DNA of 64,000 bases from the NCBI RefSeq assembly GCF_039522665.1, contig NZ_BAAADV010000004.1, forward strand, positions 124,001-188,000. The letters run 5' to 3'. Below, one piece after another: positions 2,858 to 10,906 of this stretch. The stretch comes from Natronoarchaeum mannanilyticum. Lineage in GTDB: Archaea > Halobacteriota > Halobacteria > Halobacteriales > Natronoarchaeaceae. The stretch's first letter is position 1. Each line of letters begins with the position of its first letter. The notes beneath the pieces are model-generated. The model ran no database searches, was not told the origin of the DNA, and worked only from the letters and a program-made list of their open reading frames with translations. Both the position numbers and the translations under genes were made by a program.

Positions 2858-3122
2858 GGTGTCGCTCCCTGGAATAGAGTACGTTCCCCACCTGATAAGT
2901 AAGCTCCCCTTTAGTCCCGGCAAAAACGGGCAAATACAAAACCGAACGCGATTGCCATCGGTAATTATAAGTGGAAATCGCCGTATGAACTGTTCATGGC
3001 CGGCGATGCCGAAGCCAGCCGCAATCGGAGCGCTGAACCGGCGGCGATAACGGCTGTAGCGGGCCATGGAGCGGTCATGTCAGAGCGCCGGACGAGCGGG
3101 TTGCGGTGCGAGAGGCTATACT

Positions 3123-4559
3123 GTGACTGAAAACGTCTCGACGAACAGACGGTCGGCGGCGCGCGACGGCGGATCCCGGGGCGAACCGAGGCGTATCGCC
3201 GTCGCCAGCGGCATCGACGACGCCGATCGGATCGCCGCGATGGCGCCCGACGAGTGTGCGGTTTCGCTGGGATCGCCCGGCTGTATCGACGGCGTCGATC
3301 TGTGGATCGCGGACGACTCCGCGCTCGAATCGCTCGAAGACTTGCCCCCGAGCGGGGACGGCGTCGACCCGTCGATCCTGTTCGTCGTCGACGACGAACA
3401 GCTCCCCGACGACTGCTGGTCGACGATCGACGACGTGGTCCGGCGGCCGCTCCGACCGTCGGTGGTTCGCCGGCGCATCGAAAACGTGCTCGGCGTTCCG
3501 GGCCCGGACGCCGCGGCGTCGACCGCTCCCGCGACCGAGCGGGTCGGGATCGACTGCGTCTCCCAGCCCGTCGTGACGGCGCGCATCGAGGACGGCGAGC
3601 GCCTCGTCTGCGGGGTCAACCCCGCCTTCGAGGAGCTGTTCGGTTACGACGCCGACGCCGTCGTCGGAGAGCGGCTCTCGGAGTGGGTCGTTCCGGTCGA
3701 CGACCGGTCGGCCGCCGCGGAGCTGGTCGAGCAGGTCGATCGCGGTACCCCGGTCGAGCGGATCGTCACGCGTCGGACGGCGACCGGTCGTCGCGACGTG
3801 GCGCTCAAGATGCTCCCGGCGGCCGGCGGCCCTGTCGACGCGTTCGTCTGTTACGACGACGTCACCGACGAGCGGTGCCGAAAACAGCAGGTGACGGTCC
3901 TCAACCGCGTCCTGCGGCACAACATCCGCAACGGGATGAACGTGATCCTCGGTAACGCAGAGCTGCTGGCCGGGCGGGTCGACGACCCGACGACGCTCGA
4001 AGCGGTGCGCTCGATCGAAGACGCGGCCGAGGATCTCGTCGAACTCGGCGAGACCGCCGGCTCTCTCCAGACGGCCTGGGACGGAACGGAGCGCGGCGTC
4101 CTCGACGCCGTCCGACTCGTCGAGCGCGTCCGAACGAACCTTCGCTCCGACTCGTCGACGTCCGGAATCCGCGTCGAGGCGCCCGAGAGCTGTCCGGTGC
4201 TCGCGGACGCGCACCTGGAGACGGCCGTCCGCGAACTCTGCGAAAACGCGCTTCGCTACGCGGGAGAGGACGCTCCAGTCGTCGTTCGTGTCGACCGGCG
4301 GAGCGCTTGGACGGAGATCACCGTTTGCGACCGCGGTCCGGGGCTCCCGGAAGCCGAGCGGGCGGTGCTTCGGGGCGACGACGAGACGCCGCTCGAGCAC
4401 GGGAGCGGGCTGGGCCTGTGGATCGTCAACTGGATCGTCACCAGTCTGGGCGGCGAGATCGCCGTCGCCGACCGGGAACCGAACGGGACCGCGGTGACGC
4501 TGTCCCTGCCGTCGGGCCCCCGTCCGGCCGATCGGCCCCCCGCCGAGGTCACCCGCTGA
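3123..4559 (+). CDS. PAS-domain sensor histidine kinase
   Basis: A soluble two-component sensor kinase of about 478 residues. The N-terminal ~115 residues resemble a degenerate receiver-like domain (IDGVDLWIADDSALESL ... SILFVVDDEQLP). A PAS domain follows (~150-255, VCGVNPAFEELFGYDADAVVGERLSEWV). The haloarchaeal H-box is LNRVLRHNIRNGMNVILGN with phospho-acceptor His at about residue 266. The ATPase part has an N-box ELCENALRYAG, CDRGPGLP and GSGLGLWIVNWIV. I see no membrane segment. I chose the GTG at 3123, which has GAGAGG upstream; ATG 3066 adds 19 residues of unlikely composition. No response regulator is adjacent. Confidence 0.87.
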   Translation: MTENVSTNRRSAARDGGSRGEPRRIAVASGIDDADRIAAMAPDECAVSLGSPGCIDGVDLWIADDSALESLEDLPPSGDGVDPSILFVVDDEQLPDDCWSTIDDVVRRPLRPSVVRRRIENVLGVPGPDAAASTAPATERVGIDCVSQPVVTARIEDGERLVCGVNPAFEELFGYDADAVVGERLSEWVVPVDDRSAAAELVEQVDRGTPVERIVTRRTATGRRDVALKMLPAAGGPVDAFVCYDDVTDERCRKQQVTVLNRVLRHNIRNGMNVILGNAELLAGRVDDPTTLEAVRSIEDAAEDLVELGETAGSLQTAWDGTERGVLDAVRLVERVRTNLRSDSSTSGIRVEAPESCPVLADAHLETAVRELCENALRYAGEDAPVVVRVDRRSAWTEITVCDRGPGLPEAERAVLRGDDETPLEHGSGLGLWIVNWIVTSLGGEIAVADREPNGTAVTLSLPSGPRPADRPPAEVTR

Positions 4560-4678: not shown

Positions 4679-4723
4679 ATGGACGGTACCGCCGGTTCCC
4701 TGTGGGGGGTGTCACTGCAGTGA
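4679..4723 (+). other. Possible 14-codon leader ORF overlapping the CHAT gene start
   Basis: ATG at 4679 opens a frame MDGTAGSLWGVSLQ whose TGA stop (4721-4723) overlaps the GTG at 4720 as GTGA. A TTTATT box at 4645-4650 sits about 30 bases before the ATG, so transcripts may begin right at it. GGGGGGTG (4704-4711) inside the mini-ORF is a strong ribosome-binding site for GTG 4720. It may be a translated leader or chance. Confidence 0.3.
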
Positions 4724-6786
4724 ACGTCGCGTTCGAGCCGCTGTCGGCCCCCGGCCTCGAGTTGATCGACCCGATCGAACGGGTTCGGTACTCGCTGCTG
4801 ACGGACGCGCCAGTGACGCCCTCGTCGACCGACCCCGGCGCCTTCCGGTTCCCGGTCGACGACGCGGTCGAAATCGAGTGCTCGGCTATCACGCTCCCGA
4901 CGGTCGCGCCCGTCATCGTCAGGAACGAGGCTGGCGAGGTCGTCGCGAGCGCGGAACACTTCTCCCACGAGGAACTCCCGCAGGGAACGTACAGCATTGA
5001 GGTGTCCGTCCAGCTTCGGATCTACCTCCAGGTAGAGAGCGACGTCACGATCTCCTCGGAGACCGAGCGGACCTCGATCGAGTTCGGCGAGCCCACTCGG
5101 GTCGCCGTCGGCGGGCGGTCGAAGCACGAACAGCCCGCGGCGACGCTGACGACGACCGACGATCCGGAGGACATCATGCGCGCGGTGACGGCGCTGAGCT
5201 CGTCGCTCAAGACGACGACCGCCGAGCGCTCGCTGCCGACGCTGCGCGGGCATCCGCCCGCGATCGAACTCGGCGACGAACTCTCGATCCCCGAGGAAAT
5301 CGAGCCGGCCGACACCGGCGTCGCGATCGAGCTCCCGCCGACCTACCGCCACATCTACCCCGCCGCGACGCTGGCGTACTACCTCGGCGCAGAGCTAGTG
5401 CCGGGCGAGACGGCCCGAATCGTCACCGACGACGGATTCGAGCGCGATCTCGACGGGCCGGGCGGATTCGAGCGGGAGGTCGTCCGGGCGCTCAAACAGG
5501 TGTTCTTCCTCGACTGCGTCACGCGCACCGAGGGGCTGTACCCGATCGACCTCCACGAGCGCCAGCTGCTGGAGCACGAGGTCGACCTCTCCTTCCCCGA
5601 GCTGTACGAGGCGCCGCTGTCCCGGCAGCTCGAAGCGTATCTCGACGTCCCCTACGAGGCTGTCGAGGAACTGCTCCCGCAGTGGAAGCTGACGACCCAC
5701 GTCTCGCCGACGCCGGAGAGCATCGAGACGCTGCCGTACCTGGTCAACGATCTGGCGGTCATCCGAACGGCGGAGCCCCAGCAGGTGTCGGCGTCGTCGG
5801 TCGAAGAGACGGGAATGGGGGCGTACACCCGCGGAGCGGCCGAGACGTCGGGCGGCGACGCCGGCGACAACACCTACGTCCAGGTCGAATCCGACGACGC
5901 CATCGAGCAGGCGTGGGTCGGCGACGAGACGCCGATCGGCGTCAGCAAGGCGACGCCGGAGGCCTACCGCAACCGCTTCGACCGGGAGCCCTCGACCGGC
6001 GACATCGCGATCACGGTCGTCTGTAACGACGATCGCATGGACGAGGAACGCGACATCGTCGACGAGGTGTACGGCTCCCGCGCGGACCTGCCCTTCGAGG
6101 TGGCCGTCGAGCGCGACCTGCGAACGGACGAGCTGGCCGACGTGTTCGCCGAGCCGGCGGAGTTCCTCCACTACGTCGGCCACATCGACGACGACGGGTT
6201 CCGCTGTGCCGACGGCACGCTCGACGCCGGGTCGCTCGACGAGATCGGCGTCGACGCGTTCCTGTTGAACGCCTGCCAGTCGTACGACCAGGGCGCGAAG
6301 CTGATCGAGGCCGGCGCGATCGGCGGCATCGCCACGCTCAGCGACGTGATCAACAGCGGCGCCGTCCGCATCGGCTCGACGGTAGCACGCCTGCTGAACT
6401 GCGGCTTCCCGCTCCGGGCCGCCCTCGAAGTCGCGAAGGGCGAGAGCATCGTCGGCAGCCAGTATTTGGTGATCGGCGACGGCGGGCTCACCATCGCGCA
6501 GGCGGAGAGCGGGACGCCGCTGCTCGCTCGCATCGAACCGGCGGACGGGGATCGCTACGAGCTGACGTTCGAGGCGTACGCGACGACGTCCGGCGGGATG
6601 GGCGGGATGTTCATGCCGATCATCGAGTCGAACGAGAACTTCTATCTCAACTCGGGGGACAACGCGTCCGTAACGGTTTCAGAGCAAGAGCTACTTCAGT
6701 CTCTTGAGCTTGAAACATTGCCCGTCAGAATCTCGGGCGGACTACACTGGAGCGACGAAGTCGACGCTGAAACGCTGAATTCTTAA
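4720..6786 (+). CDS. CHAT-domain (caspase-like) cysteine protease homologue
   Basis: A 688-residue protein starting (GTG) MNVAFEPLSAPG. The first ~130 residues look beta-rich; a middle region (~200-340) carries PPTYRHIYPAATLAYYLGAEL and a long helical stretch. Residues ~420-600 look like a CHAT peptidase: a beta strand IAITVVCNDDRMDEE, then AEFLHYVGHIDDDGF with His at about 484 and 488, then DAFLLNACQSYDQGAK with Cys at about 519, then IGGIATLSDVINSGAVRIG. His in xGH and Cys in NACxS is the catalytic dyad pattern of CHAT/caspase-fold proteases. The final ~60 residues have lower GC and are poorly ordered. It converges with a 45-codon peptide gene, overlapping by 4 bases. No TPR partner domain is seen. 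GTG 4702 is an alternative start; 4720 has the better ribosome-binding site. Function is inferred. Confidence 0.72.
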   Translation: MNVAFEPLSAPGLELIDPIERVRYSLLTDAPVTPSSTDPGAFRFPVDDAVEIECSAITLPTVAPVIVRNEAGEVVASAEHFSHEELPQGTYSIEVSVQLRIYLQVESDVTISSETERTSIEFGEPTRVAVGGRSKHEQPAATLTTTDDPEDIMRAVTALSSSLKTTTAERSLPTLRGHPPAIELGDELSIPEEIEPADTGVAIELPPTYRHIYPAATLAYYLGAELVPGETARIVTDDGFERDLDGPGGFEREVVRALKQVFFLDCVTRTEGLYPIDLHERQLLEHEVDLSFPELYEAPLSRQLEAYLDVPYEAVEELLPQWKLTTHVSPTPESIETLPYLVNDLAVIRTAEPQQVSASSVEETGMGAYTRGAAETSGGDAGDNTYVQVESDDAIEQAWVGDETPIGVSKATPEAYRNRFDREPSTGDIAITVVCNDDRMDEERDIVDEVYGSRADLPFEVAVERDLRTDELADVFAEPAEFLHYVGHIDDDGFRCADGTLDAGSLDEIGVDAFLLNACQSYDQGAKLIEAGAIGGIATLSDVINSGAVRIGSTVARLLNCGFPLRAALEVAKGESIVGSQYLVIGDGGLTIAQAESGTPLLARIEPADGDRYELTFEAYATTSGGMGGMFMPIIESNENFYLNSGDNASVTVSEQELLQSLELETLPVRISGGLHWSDEVDAETLNS

Positions 6787-6920
6787 TCGATCGTCATCGC
6801 GATCGCCGCCGAAGCACTCCCGACTTGCGTTAGCGCCACCAGCGCAGCGAACAGCACGCCGGCCAGCCGCGGGTGGTTCTTGAGGAACGACGCCATCTGA
6901 CTTCCATTGCCGTTGGACAT
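6783..6920 (-). CDS. 45-residue hydrophobic mini-protein (DUF7503-like)
   Basis: Reads MSNGNGSQMASFLKNHPRLA, then a single hydrophobic stretch GVLFAALVALTQVGSASAAIA and a short MTID tail. The pattern (polar N-terminus, NHPR, about 20 apolar residues with a TQxGSA bend) matches a small haloarchaeal family I recall as DUF7503. It could be a membrane anchor, a pore-forming peptide or a short secreted product (SAS-A could be a cleavage site). There is no ribosome-binding site, but a TATA-like box lies 29-38 bases upstream, so it is probably leaderless. It converges with the CHAT protease gene (4-base overlap), which suggests a functional link. The role is unknown. Confidence 0.72.
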   Translation of the reverse strand: MSNGNGSQMASFLKNHPRLAGVLFAALVALTQVGSASAAIAMTID

Positions 6921-6948
6921 GGTACATCGCTACAAAAATGGCGAGAGA

Positions 6949-7014
6949 ATATAAAAATATTTAAATAATAAGTACATTAAACAAAGTGGATTTTGTATAC
7001 TATTTTAGAAAATA
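6949..7014 (-). promoter_or_regulatory. AT-rich promoter island with two dyads upstream of the mini-protein
   Basis: An island much more AT-rich than its surroundings. Reading toward the mini-protein, a TATA-like TTTTTATATT (6949-6958) sits at leaderless distance from ATG 6920. Further upstream are two inverted repeats: ACAAA-6nt-TTTGT at 6981-6996 and TATTTT-AG-AAAATA at 7001-7014. Their position upstream of the TATA box would suit an activator or repressor pair. No regulator can be assigned. Confidence 0.5.
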
Positions 7015-7124: not shown

Positions 7125-7718
7125 CTATTCGGTCGTCCGGACGATCCACTCCCCGTCGAACCGCTCGACGACGCCGTCGAACAGCGCCGCGAGCGTGTTG
7201 AGGTCCCGCGGCTCGTGGGCGGTGGGATCGATGTGGAAGTGCGCGACGGCGTCGGCCGCGCGGACGCGGCCCGCGAGCACGTGGAGAAAGCGGAACGCGC
7301 GTTCGAGATCCGAGTGGTCTAACAGGTCGGTCAGCGAGTGAAAACACAGGATCGTCTCGCCGCCGTCCGACAGAAAGCCGCTGATCTCGATGCCCAGCGA
7401 GGAGAGGTCCGCGGGATCGTCGATCGAGACGACGTCGACGTCGCCCCGCGACGAGCGAACGTCGCCGTGGTCGCCGACCGCGAGGAGGCGTTTTCGTCCC
7501 GTCGAGGGGTGGTTCGCGAGCTTGTCCAGACAGTCGGCGGGATCGGGGGAGAACTCGACGACGAGCACGTCACCGGTCGGGTCCGCGCTCGCGGCGAGGT
7601 CTCCGCAGAGTCCCGACGGCGTGTCGTCGCCCGCGTCGTGGACCAGAACGCTCGCTCCGGGGTCGAGCGCTCCGGGAACGACGTCCTCGCGGGGCGTCTT
7701 CGGTTCGCGTCCGGCCAT
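7125..7718 (-). CDS. Haloarchaeal RecA/KaiC-like protein without a clear P-loop (DUF7504-like)
   Basis: A 197-residue acidic protein, MAGREPKTPREDVVPGALDP. Alternating beta-alpha elements (SVLVHDAGDD, GDVLVVEFSPDPADCLDKL, VDVVSIDDPADLSSLGIEI, ETILCFHSLTDLLDHSDLE, FLHVLAGRVRAADAVAHFH) follow the order of a RecA/KaiC fold, but where Walker A would be there is only SVLVHDAGDDTPSGL. I recall this haloarchaeal family as DUF7504. A TATA-like AATTATATG at about 7741-7750 fits a leaderless start. It could be a signalling or regulatory relative of KaiC-type proteins; no reaction can be assigned. Confidence 0.66.
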   Translation of the reverse strand: MAGREPKTPREDVVPGALDPGASVLVHDAGDDTPSGLCGDLAASADPTGDVLVVEFSPDPADCLDKLANHPSTGRKRLLAVGDHGDVRSSRGDVDVVSIDDPADLSSLGIEISGFLSDGGETILCFHSLTDLLDHSDLERAFRFLHVLAGRVRAADAVAHFHIDPTAHEPRDLNTLAALFDGVVERFDGEWIVRTTE

Positions 7719-7811: not shown

Positions 7812-8987
7812 ATGGAGGAGACGAGCGGGCACGACGCCGCGGAGCAAAGTCGTTCGAGAGAGGGCGATGCCCTCTCTCGTGATCACGAACGATCGCAGAG
7901 CGATCGTTCGGACGACTCCGCGAGCCCTGACTCGCAAACTCGTCAGGACACCGGTGAGCGGGGCTCATCGAGCCCTAACTCACAAGCTCAGCAGGATGCC
8001 GCGGAGCAAAGCCCTCGTTCGCAGACTCGTCACCACGCCGAGCGCGTCACCCTCGCACGTTTGCCCTCGGGCGTCGAGGTCGCGACGACCGTCCACCGCT
8101 ACGACGGCGCCGAAGCGGGACCGACGGTGTACGTGCAGGCGGCCCAGCACGGCCGGGAGATCAACGGCTCGGAGGTACTCCGTCGAATCCACGATCGACT
8201 CCGTCGCGACGCGCTCGCGGGGACGGTGATCGCGGTACCCGTCGCGAACCCGCTGACGTTCGATCGCGTCTCCTACACCGCTCCGGCGGCGCTCGACAGC
8301 GTCAACCCGAACATGAACCGCGTCTGGCCGGGCGACCCCTCGGGATCGCTCCACCAGCGGATGGCCGCCCGGCTCTGGGAGTACGCCGGCGACGCCGACG
8401 CGATCGTCGATCTGCACACCGGCAGCCCGGACATGCTTCCGCACGTCGTCTACGCCGAGGGCGACGCCGACGCGCGCTCGCTCGCCGCCGCGTTCGGGAC
8501 CGACCTGCTGCTCGCGGAACCGGCGGGCGACGACGCGCCCGACGAGTGGCGTGCTCGCGGCTTCGACGGCAAGCTCCGCGTCGCGGCGGCCCGCGAGGGG
8601 ATCACCGCGATCACGCCGGAACTGGCCCACAACAAGCAGCTCGTCGATCCCGCCATCGAAACCGGGGTGACCGGCCTGCTGAACGCGCTCCGGCACCTGA
8701 ACGTGCTCCCGGGCGACGTCGAGGACAACGGGACGCCTCGCCGGGCGCGCAACCACCTCGGGAGCGTCGACGCCGAGGCCTCGGGGCTGTTCCGGGTGAC
8801 CGGCGAGTTCGCCGTCGGCGATCGGATCTCCGAGGGGACGACGATCGGGACGGTGTACGACCCGGCGACCTACGAGTCGCTCCAGACTGTCCGGGCCGGC
8901 CAGGACGGTATCCTGTACGCGCTCACGCGCGAGGCGACCGTGACGGCGGGCGACCGGCTCGCGGGGATCGCGCTGGTCGACGGTTAG
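7812..8987 (+). CDS. M14-family zinc hydrolase, succinylglutamate desuccinylase/aspartoacylase-like
   Basis: A 391-residue protein. The catalytic part begins near residue 75 (RVTLARLPSGVEVATTVHRY). Zinc ligands are visible in AAQHGREINGSEVL (His113, Glu116) and IVDLHTG (His202); TPELAHNKQLVD follows, and a C-terminal barrel-like module ends TAGDRLAGIALV. The family removes acyl groups from amino acids; the substrate here is unknown. Residues ~10-72 are an unusual Ser/Gln/Arg-rich insertion made of DNA hairpin repeats, absent from typical family members, and probably disordered. ATG 7812 has AGGAG upstream. The stop overlaps the convergent KaiC-like gene by 4 bases. Confidence 0.82.
   Translation: MEETSGHDAAEQSRSREGDALSRDHERSQSDRSDDSASPDSQTRQDTGERGSSSPNSQAQQDAAEQSPRSQTRHHAERVTLARLPSGVEVATTVHRYDGAEAGPTVYVQAAQHGREINGSEVLRRIHDRLRRDALAGTVIAVPVANPLTFDRVSYTAPAALDSVNPNMNRVWPGDPSGSLHQRMAARLWEYAGDADAIVDLHTGSPDMLPHVVYAEGDADARSLAAAFGTDLLLAEPAGDDAPDEWRARGFDGKLRVAAAREGITAITPELAHNKQLVDPAIETGVTGLLNALRHLNVLPGDVEDNGTPRRARNHLGSVDAEASGLFRVTGEFAVGDRISEGTTIGTVYDPATYESLQTVRAGQDGILYALTREATVTAGDRLAGIALVDG
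7855..7949 (+). repeat. In-frame hairpin repeat element, copy 1 (three hairpins)
   Basis: Inside the M14 gene. Hairpin 1: CGAGAGAGGGC-GAT-GCCCTCTCTCG halves at 7855-7865 and 7869-7879 (11-bp perfect arms). Hairpin 2: arms of 11 bp at 7886-7896 and 7900-7910 around an AGA loop. Hairpin 3: GAGCC followed by CCTGAC (7926-7931), loop TCGCAAACTC, GTCAGG (7942-7947). The third unit encodes SPDSQTRQD. The same second-plus-third architecture occurs in two other genes of the window. Confidence 0.8.
7957..8040 (+). repeat. In-frame hairpin repeat, degenerate copies 2 and 3
   Basis: Two decayed units follow copy 1 in the M14 gene. Copy 2 has GGGCTC-ATC-GAGCCC (7961-7975) and then CTAACTCACAAGCTCAGCAG with imperfect arms, encoding SSPNSQAQQDA. 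Copy 3 (about 8011-8038) is CCCTCGTTCGCAGACTCGTC, encoding SPRSQTRHH. Reading frame relative to the element is the same as copy 1. Confidence 0.65.
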
Positions 8988-10579
8988 AAAATGTTCGCCT
9001 GCCGGTAGACGTTGATCCCCTCGTTGGTGATCTCGTAGGGCTTGGTCTCGCGGGAGTGGTTCGCGTCGCGGATCTTCTGGATCTCGATGGCCAGCCGCGT
9101 CTCCCTGAAATCCGAGGGTCGGACGTACTGGAGGACGAACACGGCGTCGGTCAGGTACTCGACGATGCCGTGCCGGGACGCGAACGCCGAGTCCTCGCTG
9201 GCCTCGCTGGTCAGCAGCGTCGTGACGCCGGCGTCCTTGAGGCTCCGCGTGAAGTCGTAGATCTCGTTGCGCCGCACCGCGCGGTCGTCGTACATCATCT
9301 CCAGGAGCGACACCGAGTCCAGCACCAGCCGCGAGGCGCCGAAGTCGCGGATCAGCCGCGGCAGCTCGCTGCGGATGCTCTGGAGGCTGTTTGCCATCTC
9401 GACGGGATCGATGTCGACGACGGCGAGCTGGCCGTCCGCGGCGTACTCGTCGTAGGCGAACCCCTTCTCGGTCGCGCTGCGGATCACCCGACTGCGGGAC
9501 TCCTCTAAGGTGATGTACACCGCTCGCTCGCCCTGTTCGAGGCCCCGCTCGAGGAACTGGAGCCCGAGCGTCGTCTTCCCGGTGCCGGCGCTGCCGATCG
9601 CGACCATCAGCGACCGCTCGGGGACGCCCCCCTGAATCATCGCGTCGAGCCCCTCGACGCCGAGTTCGATCCGCGGGATCTCCGACTCGTGGGCCTCGTC
9701 CTGCTGCTCGAAGTCCGAGCCGGCGCCGGGCGCCCCCACGTCGTCGAGGTCGCCCAGCGCGCCAGCGTCGTCGGTCGCCATGTCGAACTCGCCGCCACCG
9801 CCGCCGAACTCGCCACTACCGCCGCCGCCGAAGCCGCTACTACCGCTCCCGAAGCCGCCGGACTGTCCGCTACCTGATGGTCCGCCCCCGGGTGATCCCT
9901 TGTCGGACTCGCCGGGCAGATCCGGCGCGTCGCCGAGCGCCGACGCGAAGTCGGTGTCGAAGAGGCCGCCGTCGTCTCCCTGATCGTCGCTCGGTTCACG
10001 CTCGTCCGTGGGCGTGTCGGCGCCCGAGACCTCGGAAGCCGGCCGCCCCGCGTCGGCGTCCGGGGCCTCGGAATCTGGACGCCCCGCGTCTGCGTCCCGA
10101 CGAGCCTGCGAGTCGGGGCTCGAAGCGCTCTGCGCGTCGGCGTCCGCCGGCTCGGCATCGGCGTCCGCCGAGTCCGCGTCCGTCGTCCGGCCTCCATCGA
10201 ACTCGTCGTCCTCGCCGGGTTCCGGCAGGTCGTCGAACGTCGCGTCGTCGTCCGGCTCCGGGAGATCGTCGAACGCGGCGTCGAACTCGCTTCGCTCGTC
10301 GTCGGCGATATCCTCGAACGCCGCCTCCAGGTCGTCGGCGCCCCGATCGGCCGACTCGCTCCGCGCCGCCGCGTCGGGATCCGGTAGCTCGTCGTCGAGG
10401 TCGTCCGGCGCCCATTCGCCGGAGAAAAGGTCTTCCCCGTCCTCTCCGGCGTCGCGGAGCGCCTGCTCGAACCAGTCCTCTTCGGCGTCGCGCCCCCCGT
10501 TCGCGGGCGCTTCGGCGTCGCCTTCTTCGGGAGTCTCGTCGTCCCGCCCCTCCGGATCGTCCGCCCGGTCGTCACTCAC
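8984..10579 (-). CDS. KaiC-like RecA-superfamily ATPase with long acidic N-terminus
   Basis: A 531-residue protein. Residues ~1-270 are acidic low-complexity sequence (repeated [20 protein letters not shown], Gly/Ser-rich [17 protein letters not shown]). The C-terminal ~240 residues are a single KaiC domain: [18 protein letters not shown], Walker [30 protein letters not shown], Walker B-like [29 protein letters not shown], ending YRQANIF. Such proteins bind and hydrolyse ATP and usually act in signal transduction; the partner is unknown. GTG 10579 has GGAGGTG seven bases upstream; the GTG at 10588 overlaps that site and is less likely. A hairpin repeat encoding [10 protein letters not shown] lies in the linker. 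Confidence 0.82.
10096..10135 (-). repeat. In-frame hairpin repeat element in the KaiC-like gene
   Basis: On the coding (minus) strand: short hairpin GCGC-AGA-GCGC (10135-10125), then TTCGAGC, then CCCGAC-(TCGCAGGCTC)-GTCGGG (arms 10117-10112 and 10101-10096). It encodes [13 protein letters not shown]. Compared with the copies in the M14 and DUF255 genes, the loop is conserved while the arms differ with compensating changes. Confidence 0.78.
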
Positions 10580-10906
10580 TCTGCCCACCTCCGGGGAGGG
10601 TGTCGGACCGTCTCGATTTCGGAGTGGGACTCTCGCACCGACTCGGAGCGGCGGCTGGATGCGCGCCGACCCTCGGGCGGGAGTGTTGGCTATCCATGGT
10701 TCGGTGGACGCAGGACCCGCCCGGCGTACTACTCCGGTCGAGCCGTGTGCTACTCAGTAGCCATTCGCCCCAGTCAAATTAAGGTTGCTGCCGGGGTGGT
10801 CGGACGAGCCGCCGCTCCGGGACGTCGCAGTTCGGTCTGCGGCGCCGATCAGCGCCGTCGCGACGCCAACGCGGAGTTTTTCAGCCCCCGGCGCAACGTC
10901 GAACAC
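10580..10906. other. Divergent intergenic region, no gene seen
   Basis: Separates the KaiC-like gene (minus) from NAD kinase (plus). Frames are open on both strands but show no halophilic-type protein. A local AT-richer patch CAGTCAAATTAAGG lies near 10773-10786 and a GAGTTTTT stretch at 10872-10879, about 30 bases before the NAD kinase ATG; either could be a promoter element. Confidence 0.4.

Follow-up and report, generated by a model that had tools for sequence, protein, structure and literature searches.

The pairing of a CHAT (caspase-fold) protease with a hydrophobic mini-protein of the family DUF7503, encoded tail to tail, is close to certainly real across haloarchaea. We came upon it in 64,000 nucleotides of Natronoarchaeum mannanilyticum DNA (the whole stretch analysed, hereafter the window), and an earlier description of such a tail-to-tail protease/mini-protein pair was not found in the open-licence literature searched, in which neither DUF7503 nor the CHAT domain together with haloarchaea, Haloferax volcanii, or Halobacteria gave a match. 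As far as can be read from sequence, we tentatively regard the pair as a haloarchaeal module of two genes, one for a protease and one for a membrane mini-protein, in which the latter would be a membrane-bound partner dedicated to the protease, and probably its substrate, an interpretation that we hold with somewhat less than even confidence.

The protease gene occupies positions 4720..6786 of the forward strand (688 aa from a GTG start); a second in-frame GTG at 4702 would yield a product of 694 aa, and the true start may be either of the two. On the opposite strand, at 6783..6920, lies the gene for the 45-aa hydrophobic mini-protein MSNGNGSQMASFLKNHPRLAGVLFAALVALTQVGSASAAIAMTID, which matches Pfam DUF7503 (PF24335) with an E of 8e-15, the two reading frames being exactly those that an earlier, sequence-only reading of this DNA had singled out as neighbours. 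The protease is composed of a beta-rich part (residues 1–130), a conserved alpha/beta region (131–350), a caspase-like region (426–600), and a variable C-terminus (601–688), and residues 131–350, which contain an RGHPP motif (176–180), equal the catalytic domain in conservation. The protein matched no family of Pfam even at E 10, no family of NCBIfam even at E 1, and nothing in PADLOC, PHROGs, or PDB sequence and profile searches; no curated Pfam or NCBIfam CHAT or caspase model thus matches the window protease, which is a matter of annotation and not of biology.

The AlphaFold2 model of the protease (mean pLDDT 87.1, pTM 0.88) was compared with solved structures by Foldseek, which returned separase (5fby, E 3e-8) as the best solved match, followed by gingipain R (1cvr, E 1e-6), SAVED-CHAT (8tl0, E 1.6e-6), and Craspase (8eey, E 4e-5; 7xsq, E 8e-5), the overall matches ranging from E 3e-8 to 9e-5. 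Since the whole-chain TM-scores of these matches are low (0.2–0.3 on the query), the fold match is that of the catalytic domain, roughly 200–250 residues; some of the separase and gingipain alignments with the model extend over 400 columns, with a high rmsd, a hint of a possible second caspase-like subdomain. Catalytic His488 (in LHYVGH; codon 6181..6183, forward strand) and Cys519 (in LNACQS; codon 6274..6276, forward strand) are invariant in 99/99 homologues as well as in all 60 rows of a protease alignment made up of the window protein and 59 homologues from public genome contigs. Also never varying among the 99 homologues are His484, Gly487, Cys496, Leu516, Asn517, and Ser521. The dyad had been proposed at precisely these residues, and the caspase/CHAT fold that should surround it if the proposal was right was indeed found by AlphaFold2 and Foldseek. 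With a caspase-like alpha/beta fold and a His/Cys dyad conserved in the homologue alignment, the protein has what is expected of clan CD, and its assignment as a CHAT/caspase-fold, predicted protease, which rests on fold and dyad, holds.

The 45-aa frame, in turn, is judged to be a real gene by its Pfam match, its start-proximal AT-rich promoter, and pN/pS values of about 0.1–0.2 outside the tail. The AT-rich, promoter-like stretch lies at 6941..6975 (reverse strand) with a TATA-like TTTTTATATT about 28–38 nt before the ATG, and over 149 loci the A+T content peaks at −40 to −30 from the peptide start codon, which makes a promoter dedicated to the peptide gene very probable. DUF7503 peptides begin with about 12 residues, followed by [HN]P[RK]M, a hydrophobic segment some 15 residues long, the sequence Q-A-G-x-(A/V)-A-A, and a variable tail of 7–9 residues that usually ends in Gly-Pro (90/107 distinct peptides; absent in 17/107). 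The window peptide is without Gly-Pro and ends in -TID, one of seven peptides with an -ID end, and paralogous peptides within one genome carry different tails. At the juxtamembrane [HN]P[RK] position, which in the window is Arg18 (codon 6867..6869, reverse strand), R/K is conserved in 167/172 distinct peptides, with Gln in four and Trp in one; the third residue before it is E, D, N, or Q in 147/172, and no charged residue follows it in 129/172. Pooled over 172 pairs of related sequences, pN/pS amounted to 0.21 in the N-terminal part, 0.18 in the hydrophobic part, 0.10 in the A-x-A region, 0.53 in the tail, and 0.11 in the last two residues; as the pairs are non-independent and pS in the tail is high (0.63), the contrast is reliable and the exact values are not.

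Several variants of the mini-protein deserve mention. A second tail type without Gly-Pro, mostly with a T-[IV]-x end, occurs in Haladaptatus (L227, L230–L232, L237, L241) and in the relatives of the window, in more than one lineage, and looks as though the stop had moved two codons earlier. Three strongly diverged peptides (L151, L152, L157) contain at least two Cys and are without the A-x-A region, with the -GP end kept, and at one locus (L131:5271–5567, genome G056) the peptide gene is a tandem duplicate encoding an identical protein and facing one convergent CHAT gene. Weak matches of the peptide to the CSTF2 hinge, DUF4404, typeIV_Cas11, and a tape measure protein either missed the cut-off or did not exceed chance, and were dismissed.

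The evidence for the pairing comes from 117 genomes of the order, 100 of which contain the protease and 95 of which contain DUF7503. All 95 DUF7503 genomes carry the protease and DUF7503 is found in 0/17 protease-less genomes (hypergeometric P about 2e-16, with related genomes not being independent draws). A listed protease is found within 3 kb of 118 of the 150 DUF7503 places listed, and 116 of these 118 are convergent with CHAT; a peptide that is co-directional with CHAT at a distance of 1.4 kb (L125) is counted within the 118. The remaining 32 places lie away from a listed CHAT, and 30 of them were read (two on the short contig G088:C352 were left out): 29 have a convergent protease, and the other (L087), without CHAT within 5.5 kb, is the sole such case among the loci read. 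Viewed from the side of the protease, 73 of 80 protease loci in named genomes have a convergent peptide, and 20 proteases that were read and are without a listed DUF7503 match include seven with a diverged peptide detected by profile and two more with even more diverged ones (L148, L149), in which the HPR motif is missing but both the hydrophobic segment and the -GP end are retained. Peptide and CHAT distances also correlate (Mantel r 0.405, null maximum 0.15), a value in which functional coupling and co-inheritance are not separable. The sequence-only reading had staked its case on a survey of this kind, and across the 117 genomes and the loci the two families co-occur and adjoin convergently far beyond chance.

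The junction itself is remarkably tight. In the window, the two convergent stop codons have the four bases TTAA (6783..6786) in common, an overlap that had been correctly noted before, and over 149 distinct pairs the stop-to-stop gap has a median of 1 bp, with 98 pairs at 5 bp or less, 34 pairs overlapping, and a 95th percentile of 99 bp. Control convergent gene pairs showed a median of 65.5 bp with 3/30 at 5 bp or less (Mann-Whitney P 3e-8 against the DUF7503/CHAT pairs), the control being small, plasmid-only, and hand-transcribed (30 convergent pairs within 150 kb of sequence from three annotated plasmids of haloarchaea). The convergent overlap is best regarded as a constrained feature. As touching convergent stops leave no space for separate 3′ untranslated regions, the two transcripts very probably overlap, and the few T-runs on the CHAT strand within the peptide gene (6/149 loci, a rarity partly expected from codon use) suggest that CHAT transcripts probably cross the gene.

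Because a peptide without the protease is almost never seen and a protease without the peptide sometimes is, the peptide most likely acts on the protease or vice versa. In the mechanism that we tentatively put forward, signalling inputs, often encoded nearby in the form of the KaiC-fold protein DUF7504, a sensor kinase, or a HalX regulator, would activate the protease, which would then cut the mini-protein at its juxtamembrane [E/D/N/Q]-[H/N]-P-[R/K] site, with Arg18 as the hypothetical cleavage position in the window. The product of the cut would be a short hydrophobic helix, in most cases without charge, whose release would disturb the membrane or send a signal there, and the overlapping 3′ mRNA ends would presumably keep expression of both genes coordinated or mutually limited. 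We count in favour of such a substrate role the co-occurrence, the adjacency, the gap, the dyad and fold of the protease, the loss of the peptide in dyad-less homologues (see below), the conserved [HN]P[RK] site, and the co-diversification of peptide and CHAT. CHAT substrates are, furthermore, commonly encoded near their protease, and the cleavage site of separase is ExxR (PMC9729208), which by analogy the peptide site resembles, its polar or acidic residue being P4 if the cut follows R/K. The position nearest to the P1-recognizing Asp of separase (D2151) is N545 in an alignment by eye, with Asn in 90 and Asp in 8 of the 99 homologues; as it is mostly Asn, Arg/Lys specificity is not predicted, and the claim of Arg-specific cleavage is weakened. 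Counting against a substrate role are the few peptides without R/K, the two without HPR (L148, L149), the conserved C-terminal Gly-Pro that cleavage leaves unexplained, and the existence of intact-dyad CHATs without any peptide. The known CHAT substrates are also larger and, in the loci known to us, co-directional with their protease.

The mini-protein might instead be a regulator, that is, a membrane anchor, an activator, or a securin-like inhibitor that holds CHAT at the membrane or off, with the conserved N-terminal half binding the protease and the variable tail insulating paralogous pairs, a serious possibility albeit one that we lean against. A peptide nearly always found with CHAT, and CHAT sometimes found alone, are what would be expected of an accessory regulator, and the hydrophobic segment is conserved in sequence (pN/pS 0.18) beyond the needs of a generic anchor; the tails differ among paralogous pairs of one genome, and separase, the closest fold, is kept inactive by its partner protein securin (PMC9729208). 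Intact CHATs without peptide would then be unregulated, however, and the peptide has a separate AT-rich, promoter-like region rather than a common operon with the protease. The difference in tails among paralogues of one genome would likewise suit a secreted signal precursor in the manner of the Phr/AimP pre-pheromones, which, like type I toxins, are about 45 aa long with one hydrophobic segment, and which carry a short C-terminal signal peptide. Here, the signal-peptide-like N-terminal part would be removed at A-x-A, and the tail of 7–9 residues with its Gly-Pro end would act as a pair-specific pheromone sensed through CHAT. The conserved A-x-A region (pN/pS 0.10), the fast-changing tail (0.53), and the constrained Gly-Pro (0.11; -GP end in 90 of the 107 distinct peptides) agree with this idea, which we nevertheless consider improbable: the hydrophobic part is far more conserved than in ordinary signal peptides, the diverged peptides L151, L152, and L157 lack the A-x-A region though -GP is kept, -GP is missing in 17 of 107 peptides including that of the window with its -TID, and relaxed constraint explains a tail pN/pS below 1 equally well.

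A type I toxin-antitoxin-like arrangement would shift the interaction to the level of RNA, with a toxic membrane peptide, the mRNA of which would be kept silent by CHAT transcripts reading through at their 3′ end, and with the protease as the partner that gives the locus its use. Although most pairs have abutting stop codons, the CHAT strand rarely shows a T-run in the peptide gene (6/149), and the peptide is like type I toxins in its size and single hydrophobic segment, we deem this quite improbable, given that the gap is variable (95th percentile 99 bp), the L125 pair is co-directional, the scarcity of T-runs is partly expected from codon use, and the conserved Gly-Pro and [HN]P[RK] motif would be unexplained. 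Both Phr/AimP and type I toxins differ from the present case in that the partner here is a caspase-fold protease and that [HN]P[RK] and -GP are conserved. Finally, unrelated genes might have stayed side by side by descent without any function of the linkage; the Halobacteria have a common ancestry, and at some loci, those of Haloferax and related genera, several genes are kept in synteny. Such inherited linkage is highly improbable, however, as plasmids and multi-copy sets contain both genes together and the pairs persist while neighbours other than DUF7504 change, retain a gap of about 1 bp even with strongly diverged peptides, and co-occur in 95/95 genomes. The regulator, secreted signal, and RNA-level readings are not all mutually exclusive.

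Taken as a protease with its putative substrate, the module is by analogy a CHAT protease plus an adjacent dedicated partner in the manner of Craspase and the gasdermin systems, and a member of neither. It shares with Craspase (TPR-CHAT/Csx29 cleaving Csx30) the CHAT/separase-like caspase fold with its His/Cys dyad and a dedicated partner gene adjoining the protease, whereas the partner gene here is convergent and encodes a 45-aa hydrophobic mini-protein, not Csx30. The N-terminal part of the window protease gave no TPR match, and nothing places the locus in a Cas7-11/Csx30 system, with no Cas match in the flanking window proteins scanned, in PADLOC, or in the annotated homologue loci. As in bacterial gasdermin operons, a caspase-fold protease is encoded with a small, here predicted, membrane-directed partner, but DUF7503 has about 45 aa and one hydrophobic segment in place of a gasdermin fold of about 250 aa, and the arrangement is convergent and not operonic. 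SAVED-CHAT (8tl0) has the CHAT domain in common with the window protease, whereas no SAVED domain or nucleotide-sensing partner was found in the module. Separase and securin offer the closest solved fold (5fby), the dyad, and a cleavage motif (ExxR) like that of the peptide, in contrast to an overall TM-score of 0.2–0.3 and a P1-recognizing Asp that is mostly Asn here at the nearest position. The peptide and its RecA/KaiC-fold neighbour belong to the uncharacterized Pfam families DUF7503 (PF24335) and DUF7504 (PF24336), respectively. As regards anti-phage defence, CHAT has no PADLOC match and no phage or IMG/VR match, and no relatives of the pair were found in the phage and IMG/VR collections searched; as PADLOC and viral support are absent and the chromosomal context is common to several genera, a defence island was set aside, although an undescribed defence role may still be compatible with these negatives. 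The interpretation offered by the sequence-only reading was accordingly borne out for co-occurrence, adjacency, and fold, but its defence label found no direct support.

The neighbourhood suggests signalling but falls short of proving a pathway. Beyond the peptide, the window contains a DUF7504 gene (PF24336, E 2.8e-30; 7125..7718, reverse strand) encoding a RecA/KaiC-fold protein of 197 aa, the AlphaFold2 model of which (pLDDT 81) resembles FlaH and KaiC in Foldseek. At 67 of 176 other loci the gene immediately preceding CHAT on its strand encodes DUF7504 (median 51 bp), and in ten more DUF7504 is found downstream; the family is common, at 1–22 copies per genome. A PAS-HisKA-HATPase sensor kinase (3066..4559, forward strand; Pfam, NCBIfam) precedes CHAT on the same strand and is a possible input to the module, its membership being uncertain, and a HalX response regulator is encoded beyond the peptide in 25 loci. 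Also in the window, two genes past the DUF7504 gene, a 534-aa protein (8984–10588) has a C-terminal KaiC domain (TIGR03880, above cut-off), and upstream of the sensor kinase three ORFs at 224–1243, 1319–2053, and 2204–2902 (232–339 aa) are without a Pfam match.

Haloferax volcanii is reported to exhibit a very high, stress-linked caspase-like activity, and archaeal genomes are said to be without clear caspase homologues (PMC3615174). A DUF7503 gene is present in the H. volcanii genome and the full pair in twelve other named Haloferax species, whose proteases carry the label hypothetical in most of the records seen, and the CHAT protease is therefore offered as a candidate for the gene behind this activity. 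The reported activity was measured on substrates with Asp at P1, which do not fit an Arg/Lys preference, so that the link to the protease is put forward as a hypothesis. The orphan Haloferax activity is thus given a concrete candidate gene family of caspase fold and invariant dyad, present in 100/117 genomes of the order and accompanied by a small partner gene, in most cases unannotated, that is unusual already for its strictly convergent position, and a long-open question becomes testable by simple gene deletion. The most far-reaching version would be a new type of signalling or death module common to haloarchaea, in which a KaiC-fold-controlled, caspase-fold protease is joined to a pair-specific 45-aa membrane mini-protein with a recognized Gly-Pro C-terminus, coupled to it at the gene level by touching convergent stops, and is the source of the Haloferax caspase-like activity; as a whole, this version appears rather unlikely.

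The protease family is nearly confined to Halobacteria, where it reaches up to 15 copies in some genomes and occurs on 25 haloarchaeal plasmids. Several flanking genes are common to the loci of Haloferax and related genera, and the locus there accordingly looks chromosomal and inherited. Outside the haloarchaea, related CHATs exist in four genomes, all from a single family of the phylum (L248–L251), with no DUF7503 peptide detected; three of them keep an obvious HxGH..C pattern, and the fourth (L250) reads FIGRH / CTDSS, making its dyad doubtful. Three CHAT homologues (L246:4703–6838, L247:5916–8093, L252:6437–8386) are without the His/Cys dyad, retain the N-terminal region, and have no detectable peptide, and by their sequences they are possible pseudo-enzymes. 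One locus (L253:4318–11309, genome G072) has three tandem CHAT genes with no peptide detectable, and at two others (L074:5637–7744, L078:3211–5435) the CHAT frame is split, by a frameshift or a sequencing error, beside an apparently intact peptide gene.
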